Assembly: GCA_024278275.1 (NCBI GenBank)
Contig: JAJRTN010000133.1
Coordinates: forward strand, 1 to 44,561
Reading direction: 5' to 3'
Source: Candidatus Hydrogenedentota bacterium
GTDB lineage: Bacteria; Hydrogenedentota; Hydrogenedentia; Hydrogenedentales; JAJRTN01
Length of the DNA stretch: 44,561 nucleotides
A program made the translations under genes and the position numbers. The stretch's first letter is position 1; each line of letters starts with the position of its first letter. The notes under the pieces are model-generated. The model had not been told where the DNA came from and made no database searches. It saw only the letters and a list, made by a program, of their open reading frames with translations. Below are positions 39,028-41,275 of this stretch, piece by piece.

Positions 39028-39597
39028 CTACCGGGGCCGGTCCTTTCCGGCGCGTCTGCAAATCGCGTCGAAGAGATCGGACACGCATTCGAGGCCGTAG
39101 TCCCGAAAGTTTTTGGGGTTCTCCCAGAACTCGGCGAGGTTGCCCCGGTGTTCCCGTTCGTAGTGGATGATCTTCACCATCATCTGCGCCTTGTCGAGGC
39201 CGCGGAGCAGGCGGGCCTCGGGCGTTTCGGCCGCGCTGAACTCGGCGTGCAGGTCGGCCAGGTGTGGTGGGAATCCCTTCAGCAGGTCTTCGAGGATGGC
39301 CTGTTCGGCGCGGTCCTTGGCTTCGCTCATGTAGGCGTCGGCGTAGGGCATGGGGATATCCATGATGCGTGCCTCGGAGAGATCGTGAATGAGCTCCATG
39401 GCGAGAACCCGGTCGCGGTCGAAGCGGCCGGGATACTCTTCGACGAAGAGCAGCGCCATGAGCGACACGAAGTGACTGTGGGCCGCCACGGATTCGGGGT
39501 CGGCCACGCCGCGCAGGAGGTAGCCACTGCGGGGAACCCGGTCGAGGGGGTGGATGGCCTGGAAAAGATCGAGAATACGCGTGGGAAAATCACTCAT
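39028..39597 (-). CDS. HD-domain phosphohydrolase (YfbR-like)
   Basis: The protein has 189 residues from ATG 39597 (MSDFPTRILDLFQAIHPLDR). The HD signature is complete: His in VAAHSH, His-Asp in ELIHDLSEARIMDIP and Asp in RGLDKAQMM. YfbR-like enzymes dephosphorylate deoxynucleoside monophosphates. Its start overlaps the stop of the DnaA-like gene by 8 bases, so translation is coupled and a joint role is likely. Confidence 0.85.
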   Translation of the reverse strand: MSDFPTRILDLFQAIHPLDRVPRSGYLLRGVADPESVAAHSHFVSLMALLFVEEYPGRFDRDRVLAMELIHDLSEARIMDIPMPYADAYMSEAKDRAEQAILEDLLKGFPPHLADLHAEFSAAETPEARLLRGLDKAQMMVKIIHYEREHRGNLAEFWENPKNFRDYGLECVSDLFDAICRRAGKDRPR

Positions 39598-41275
39598 CCG
39601 TTTCGGGTGTTCCTTCCTCGGAGCCGGCCGATGGCTCCATGGCCGACATGGCCTCGGCGATTTCGTTGAGTTCCGTGGTGGGGGACCGCGGCAGGGAGAC
39701 AAACGCCTCCTCGCCGAACAGGGACGGCTGTTCCACCTCGGGCGCGTCCGCTTCGGGCGGCGGGCCGGGCACGTCGGGCAAACCGCCCAAGCGTTCGGCG
39801 GCGCCGGAAAGGAGGGCCGCGGCACGGGTCAATTCTCCGGCTTCCCGGTTCAGCATTCCGGCCACATCCTGCCCGGTTCCGTGATGCAGCGCCAGGGCGG
39901 CTTCAAGCGTCGTGACGCGGTGTTGCAGTTCGCCCACTTGTATGTTCGCCGAGGCCACCTGCGTGGCCGCTTCCTGGCGCAGGGCGTCCATTTCGGCCGC
40001 GGTCAAGCTCATCTGCCGCCGCGCCTTTTCAAGCTCGAATTCCATCGTGGAAAGACGCGCTTCCCGTTCGTCGAGCACATGGGCGATTCGTGCCTGTTCC
40101 TCCCGCGCGGCACGGGCGGCATCTTCCTGGTGCGCCACCGCCGCCTCCAGTTCCGCGACTTCCCGCGTGAGCGTTTCGGCGGCCTTCAGCGCATCCTCCC
40201 GCAAACGGGCGTTCTCCTCGAATACGGTGTGCCGGATGAGCAACAGCCGGCGCGCTTCCAATTCCGCCAGCAAATCAGGCAGCGCCTCCACCGGATCGCG
40301 ACCGGCCGCCTCCACATCGGTCCAGGCGAGCAGTCCCGCCACGGCCTGGCGCAGTGTCCGCAAAGCCCCTTCCACTTCCGTTCGCGCCGCTCTTTCCTTC
40401 TCCAGCTCTTCTTCCGCATGAATCCGGGCACCCAGTTGGCCCTGCAGGCGCGCCTGTTCGGCGAAAGCGCCCGCCGCTTCCGCTTCACTTTGCTTGAGGC
40501 GCTTCCGCAGAACCTCGGCCTCGGCTTCCGCCGCCGTCAGTTTGCCGTTGAGATCGGCCAGGTCCGAGGCCAGCCCGACATGGTCGGCCAATTGCTTCTC
40601 CAGGCGCGCCCGCTCCTCCCGCAGGGCCGTCACCTCGGCTTCCAGCCCGGCCACGCTCTCCCGGGCCAGGCGCTCCGCGTCGGCCTCCCGGGCGAGGCGG
40701 TTTTCCAGGTGGGCCCGCGCTTCCCGCAACGCGCCCAGTTCCGCCTGTAAACGGGTCGTGACCGTTGTCTCGCGGGTCTCCGGGGCAACCTCCGGGCGGG
40801 GCAGAGGCGTCATTTCAATCATGCGGGACGTCGTCAGCAGACGCCGGAAGTCGTCGCTGCATTGGGCCAGGCGGGCGGGATGGACCGCCGTGGCCACCAC
40901 GACCGTCTGCTCATGTTCCAGGAACAGGCGCACAACGGCCTCCAGGTCGGAGACCTCTTCGCGGAATTGTTCGAGCTGGTCCACCAGGAGGATGGCACGG
41001 TGCCCGCCGGAGATGACCCTGGGATCGTGAACCAAATCACGCACCTTCCGGGGAAACTCGCGGGCCATGATGAGCGCCAGGCCGATCCGCGCGCTGCCGC
41101 TTCGGACCTGTTTGGCAATGGACCATAGAAGGTGGCTCTTGCCGGCGCCCCCGGGTCCCAGCAGCACGGTCAGGCCGCCGCGGGCGGATTCGGGCGTGGC
41201 CACATCACGGCATGCCTCGAAGGCATCCCGATTCCCGTCCGTCACCTGAAATGTGTCAAAACCGAATCCGCGCAT
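39590..41275 (-). CDS. DnaA/Hda-like AAA+ ATPase domain fused to a long coiled coil
   Basis: The protein has 561 residues. Residues 1-165 match the DnaA/Hda AAA+ core: an N-terminal FDTFQVTDGNRDAFEACRDV, Walker A GPGGAGKS (40-47), Walker B ILLVDQLEQF (95-104, Asp99) and a sensor-1-like strand VVVATAVHPARLAQ. The RLRSRF-type arginine region reads DDFRRLLTTSR. The lid and DNA-binding domains of DnaA are missing. Residues about 165-465 are a heptad-rich coiled coil dominated by Ala, Glu, Leu and Arg. The last 95 residues are acidic, with EQPSLFGEEAF. I know no named family with this layout. It may position or organise a DNA- or cell-cycle-related complex. The promoter lies at 41314-41342. Confidence 0.7.
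   Translation of the reverse strand: MRGFGFDTFQVTDGNRDAFEACRDVATPESARGGLTVLLGPGGAGKSHLLWSIAKQVRSGSARIGLALIMAREFPRKVRDLVHDPRVISGGHRAILLVDQLEQFREEVSDLEAVVRLFLEHEQTVVVATAVHPARLAQCSDDFRRLLTTSRMIEMTPLPRPEVAPETRETTVTTRLQAELGALREARAHLENRLAREADAERLARESVAGLEAEVTALREERARLEKQLADHVGLASDLADLNGKLTAAEAEAEVLRKRLKQSEAEAAGAFAEQARLQGQLGARIHAEEELEKERAARTEVEGALRTLRQAVAGLLAWTDVEAAGRDPVEALPDLLAELEARRLLLIRHTVFEENARLREDALKAAETLTREVAELEAAVAHQEDAARAAREEQARIAHVLDEREARLSTMEFELEKARRQMSLTAAEMDALRQEAATQVASANIQVGELQHRVTTLEAALALHHGTGQDVAGMLNREAGELTRAAALLSGAAERLGGLPDVPGPPPEADAPEVEQPSLFGEEAFVSLPRSPTTELNEIAEAMSAMEPSAGSEEGTPETDE

Follow-up and report, generated by a model that had tools for sequence, protein, structure and literature searches.

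Hda and YabA are two ways in which the control of replication initiation is tied to the sliding clamp of the DNA polymerase. Hda combines a DnaA-type AAA+ core with a clamp-binding peptide (PMC3836487), and YabA forms a helical multimer that serves as a hub linking the clamp and DnaA (PMC4705661). Here, we analyze a window of 44,561 nucleotides (the whole stretch of DNA considered in this work) from a member of the Hydrogenedentota. It contains a gene, here called gene A (39590..41275, minus strand), that encodes a 561-aa protein with a DnaA-like AAA+ head, a coiled-coil rod and an acidic tail, and that is followed by a gene for an HD-domain phosphohydrolase. The Hydrogenedentota are a little-studied bacterial phylum, and a literature search found no paper on DnaA in this group. 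To our knowledge, little is known about the coupling of initiation to elongation outside Proteobacteria and Firmicutes.

Homologues of gene A occur in 58 of 67 other Hydrogenedentota genomes; with the window's own genome, the count is 59 of 68. Both the architecture of the protein and its pairing with the HD gene, which an earlier note had described from the letters of the window, are real and conserved. Our best explanation, to which we assign a probability of about 0.42, is that gene A encodes a clamp-tethered, nucleotide-binding rod on a head derived from DnaA or Hda, with a coupled HD enzyme. On the best reading, the protein belongs to neither the Hda nor the YabA family, though it might act somewhat like both. 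We found no canonical Hda in the window's genome, and this conserved protein of DnaA descent, with its clamp-type tail, is a concrete and testable candidate for initiation-elongation coupling.

The DnaA-like head of gene A

The head (residues 1-157; 40805..41275, minus strand) is a lidless AAA+ core of the DnaA/Hda type. Residues 3-145 match the Pfam family Bac_DnaA (PF00308) with E=3e-8 and 34.4 bits, above the curated cut-off of 23. The earlier note had proposed a DnaA-like N-terminal domain, and this proposal holds: Bac_DnaA is the top Pfam family for the head, and the ABC, STAND and AAA P-loop families, each of which scored lower, were ruled out. In NCBIfam, Hda ranks first and DnaA second for the gene A protein, both far under their equivalog cut-offs (for Hda, 31.1 bits against a cut-off of 194.8). 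An AlphaFold (AF2) model of the domain, made with 13 sequences in the alignment, has a pLDDT of 87. The top PDB match of this model in Foldseek is domain III of DnaA (8bv3; E=7e-11, TM 0.71), and the order of matches is DnaA domain III of Bacillus, Aquifex and Thermotoga, then Hda, ahead of other AAA+ proteins.

The AAA+ core fold of DnaA is thus the best structural match of the head, but gene A lacks domains I, II and IV of DnaA and the lid. The head ends past the last core strand, and in the full AF2 model the core is followed by a linker and then by coiled coil. A Pfam scan of the protein found no DnaA C-terminal (DNA-binding, domain IV) domain. The loss of the lid and of the DNA-binding domain, both suggested in the earlier note, is borne out by the scan and the model.

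The nucleotide-binding motifs are better preserved than the catalytic ones. Among 40 members of the family, G45, K46, H48 and L49 at Walker A (residues 40-47, GPGGAGKS; 41135..41158, minus strand) are invariant, as is D99 of Walker B (residues 95-100, ILLVDQ; 40976..40993, minus strand). The next position, 100, is that of the catalytic acid and is Q, E, D, G, N or H across these members. Alignment with the genome's own DnaA, together with column counts, places the sensor-1 strand at residues 125-133 (40877..40903, minus strand). At position 130, where DnaA has Asp, the window's protein has A and its relatives mostly have S, R, N, Q or K, or else A or C. In the equivalent of box VII (residues 142-146; 40838..40852, minus strand), D142 and L146 stand at the places of DnaA Arg281 and of the Arg finger, Arg285 (numbering from PMC5742627), so that neither arginine is retained. 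Position 146 is mostly Leu in the family and Arg in 4 of the 40 members. Of the DnaA/Hda-type Walker A, Walker B and sensor 1 that the earlier note had read, the Walker motifs stand; closer inspection shows residues unlike those of DnaA at the sensor-1 and catalytic positions.

Since the P-loop and D99 never vary, while the Arg-finger site, sensor 1 and the catalytic acid are eroded and the lid is gone, the head probably binds ATP without acting as a motor and probably without hydrolyzing it. If this reading of the alignments is right, gene A would illustrate that an AAA+ initiator core can shed its lid, Arg finger and catalytic residues and still retain a strictly conserved nucleotide pocket as the head of a scaffold.

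The rod, the tail and a candidate clamp motif

The coiled-coil rod (residues 175-465; 39881..40753, minus strand) is predicted to consist of two long helices and spans about 290 residues, close to the 300 or so estimated from the letters. Its heptad periodicity, taken over residues 165-480, is about 5 SD over that of shuffled sequences. The full AF2 model, which is of lower confidence (mean pLDDT 69), has helices at residues 175-323, 328-465 and 471-493, and past these the tail is disordered. Coiled-coil matches to SMC, TrlF and others were discarded as compositional. One element of the rod, AEMDALRQEAATQVASANIQVGELQHRVTTLE (residues 427-458, 32 residues; 39902..39997, minus strand), is conserved. 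A profile of this element, made from a small seed of three sequences that includes the window's protein, exceeds 13 bits in roughly half of the 64 members scored, whereas heptad-register shuffles reach 9.7 at most. We infer that the rod is dimeric or of higher order.

The tail (residues 494-561; 39593..39796, minus strand) is acidic, as had been noticed earlier, with a net charge of -15 across residues 480-561; it is also Pro-rich and disordered in the model (pLDDT mostly <50). Within it lies QPSLFG (residues 516-521; 39713..39730, minus strand), a candidate sliding-clamp-binding motif of the QxxLF type. QPSLF itself (516-520) sits in an accessible, disordered segment (pLDDT<50, AF2). A short C-terminal helix (residues 533-544, LNEIAEAM; 39644..39679, minus strand) resembles in position the L..vv..AL of relatives. 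QxxLF is the typical bacterial clamp-binding pentapeptide (PMC12309361). In the window's genome, a broad clamp-motif pattern matches DnaE (QTSLFD), DinB (QLQLFD) and MutS (QTYLFG) at a single site apiece. All three are standard clamp clients. What is new here, judged by sequence, is that the tail of gene A has a clamp-type QxxLF motif of the same type as those of the genome's own clamp clients.

In the window's group, [QE]xxLF[DEG] is present in the last 120 residues of 10 of 11 members, against 0.13 expected from shuffling, a comparison in which the pattern was chosen after the tails were inspected and the related sequences are not independent. Nine proteins of the group have strict QxxLF tails, usually 44-57 residues before the C-end, and Q..LF[DG] arises in 0.7% of shuffles of the window's own gene A protein. 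One of the nine (in G008; L184:3227-4285, plus strand) has lost the AAA+ domain and kept the rod element and a QEFLF tail, with an HtrA-like gene upstream. Beyond the window's group, strict QxxLF is found only as QLELF in two f5 proteins (L193 and L194), outside their last 220 residues. Three members (L036, L038 and L064) lie near the window's protein on the tree, yet are without the motif. Most other lineages also have no QxxLF, and their tails finish in other conserved peptides, e.g., -D(P/H)SI or AFGDP. Clamp binding therefore cannot be the function of the whole family, and the client may differ by lineage.

A different way to account for such variety is that gene A encodes an ATP-gated coiled-coil scaffold of a general kind, or a polarity factor, with no link to replication. 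The head would then be a mere nucleotide switch, and the tails would recruit lineage-specific clients, perhaps those of envelope, pilus or c-di-GMP-linked assemblies. The range of lengths among relatives (about 295 to 1576 aa) and the variation of tails by lineage would fit this account, as would the MshEN domain in which basal paralogs of the family finish, the PilB/GspE-like ATPase gene that adjoins an MshEN-DnaA paralog, and the divergent neighbor with a PP2C phosphatase-like start at several f4/f5 loci. However, the motif of the window's group is of exactly the type seen among the clamp motifs of its own genome, and a Pfam scan of the window's gene A protein found no MshEN domain. We consider a scaffold unrelated to replication rather doubtful.

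The candidate motif also raises the question of whether gene A encodes an Hda-type inactivator of DnaA, that is, a clamp-bound AAA+ protein that gives an Arg finger to DnaA-ATP. Hda is the closest curated family by score, a clamp-type motif is present, and no canonical Hda was found in the window's genome, since its only other Bac_DnaA proteins are DnaA and an MshEN-containing paralog of DnaA. In contrast to Hda, however, gene A has no lid and has Leu at the Arg-finger site, as do most members, and its QxxLF is limited essentially to one group and lies C-terminal, past a long coiled coil, whereas the clamp-binding hexapeptide of Hda is N-terminal. In Hda, R153 is essential for RIDA (PMC3836487). 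Because the loss of the Arg finger and the lid removes the known Hda mechanism, Hda-type RIDA by gene A was rejected; an Arg-finger mechanism is unlikely for this protein, and an Hda-type inactivator is very improbable. The differences from YabA are of another kind: YabA has 119 aa, is not AAA+ and is without a classical clamp motif, and Pfam and NCBIfam scans gave no YabA match for gene A.

The HD enzyme and a possible place at the replisome

The HD gene (39028..39597, minus strand) encodes a 189-aa HD_3 phosphohydrolase of the YfbR/HDDC2-like kind (HD_3 3.4e-27, YfbR-like 1e-10, Pfam scan). Like the YfbR/HDDC2 5'-nucleotidases, it has an HD_3 domain with the full set of motifs (H40, H71-D72, E75, D80 and D135), the spacing of which is presumably as in YfbR. 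The earlier note had called the enzyme complete and YfbR-like; it is complete, but it is not YfbR proper. Its score against the YfbR equivalog NF003009 is 26.8 bits, under the cut-off of 122, and it is closer to the PF0395/HDDC2 type, known from the structures of archaeal PF0395 and human HDDC2. The enzyme is probably a deoxynucleoside 5'-monophosphatase (dNMP phosphatase); relatives of it are described in PMC5098729.

The stop of gene A overlaps the start of the HD gene by the 8 bp that the earlier note had counted (39590..39597, minus strand), and a 4-bp stop/start overlap is found in about one third of the adjacent pairs among relatives. Among 52 assessable genomes, the HD gene is directly downstream of gene A in 40 and not adjacent in the other 12; this count relies on MAG contigs and excludes 7 gene A genomes in which contig ends make adjacency unjudgeable. 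The pairing is thus conserved, as the earlier note's interpretation requires. No other neighbor is widely conserved around gene A in relatives; the class II aldolase, DUF4037 protein and solute-binding protein genes near the pair in the window are not kept beside it. In a tree, the gene A family is one group separate from DnaA, and HD adjacency is clustered.

These relatives were retrieved by an alignment-based contig scan; a query with the single protein gave no match. Among the matches listed (GTDB genomes, and a pattern scan with one conserved motif), no gene A member was found outside Hydrogenedentota, and 68 weaker loci are mostly ordinary DnaA, plus a few other DnaA-domain fusions. An apparent outsider, the 'Rhodothermaeota' MAG of L083, was rejected as such, as its genome belongs to the same phylum (G068 = G028). 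A horizontal or viral origin of gene A was also set aside: no viral contig matched the single motif pattern scanned.

The linkage of the two genes could simply reflect a two-gene transcription unit in which the HD gene encodes a housekeeping nucleotidase that is unrelated to gene A and shares no function with it, and this would fit any other reading of gene A itself. The HD gene persists without gene A in G013, G019, G025 and G041 (family f7 and others), gene A persists without a detectable HD gene in G012 (99%-complete) and G028, and the two genes are separated in an f5 subclade. Yet adjacency to the HD gene is widely kept while that of no other neighbor is, and the stop and start codons often overlap. 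We regard an independent HD enzyme as a serious possibility, at a little under even odds. The coupling to an HD nucleotidase that the earlier note had postulated thus stands as operon linkage; joint action of the proteins does not follow, as each gene occurs alone.

We favor, tentatively, the clamp-tethered rod. In this model, a head from the DnaA/Hda AAA+ core, nucleotide-binding and probably non-hydrolyzing, would be mounted on the coiled-coil rod, and in the window's lineage the flexible acidic tail would dock on the DNA polymerase sliding clamp through QxxLF. The rod could then keep the DnaA-like head and the partner of the head close to the replisome. AAA+ cores of the DnaA clade pair with each other, and the nucleotide face of the head is kept; we therefore infer that the partner is most likely DnaA, or another AAA+ protein, contacted via this intact face. 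The gene A protein would serve initiation as a tether or regulator linked to the clamp, broadly Hda- or YabA-like, and would work without an Arg finger. The translationally coupled HD enzyme would be made in step with the gene A protein and might tie the device to the deoxynucleotide pool. The earlier note had imagined a nucleotide-linked scaffold or cell-cycle device. For a role as scaffold or in replication, the QxxLF motif now adds sequence support, whereas the link to the HD enzyme is operonic only.

A bolder form of this idea would be a phylum-specific replication control. An Hda-derived, finger-less and ATP-locked head, tethered to the clamp, would capture or cap DnaA at the fork, and the co-made dNMP phosphatase would adjust the local nucleotide pool. 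We consider this distinctly unlikely.

Other proteins with DnaA-type domains

In the DnaA paralog of the window's own genome (L178, G000:C193, 1261-3471, minus strand), an MshEN domain stands at the N-terminus, followed by a long linker rich in Ala and Pro and by an AAA+ domain of the DnaA type. This paralog adjoins the gene for a PilB/GspE-like ATPase, which itself reads as MshEN-type. In divergent, basal paralogs of the gene A family from G002, G010 and G054 (L187:2052-4466, minus strand; L188:3413-5836, plus strand; L189:1351-2922, minus strand), the DnaA-like AAA+ domain is N-terminal and the MshEN domain C-terminal.

DnaA-type domains were also seen in other settings. A 761-aa frame in a Ruminococcus MAG (L093, from 5935, plus strand) has a DnaA-like AAA+ domain and then BspA-like repeats. 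Two loci in Euryarchaeota MAGs (L125:5458-7314 and L136:475-2367, both plus strand) code for proteins of about 620 aa in which a bacterial DnaA-type AAA+ domain (Bac_DnaA 5e-17 and 8e-16) is accompanied by a C-terminal part that looks helical. Lastly, a conserved divergent gene lies about 1 kb upstream of gene A at L051, L059, L063, L065, L068, L070 and L083; at L083, the start of its product, GRRKRENEDSFGVF, resembles PP2C phosphatase.
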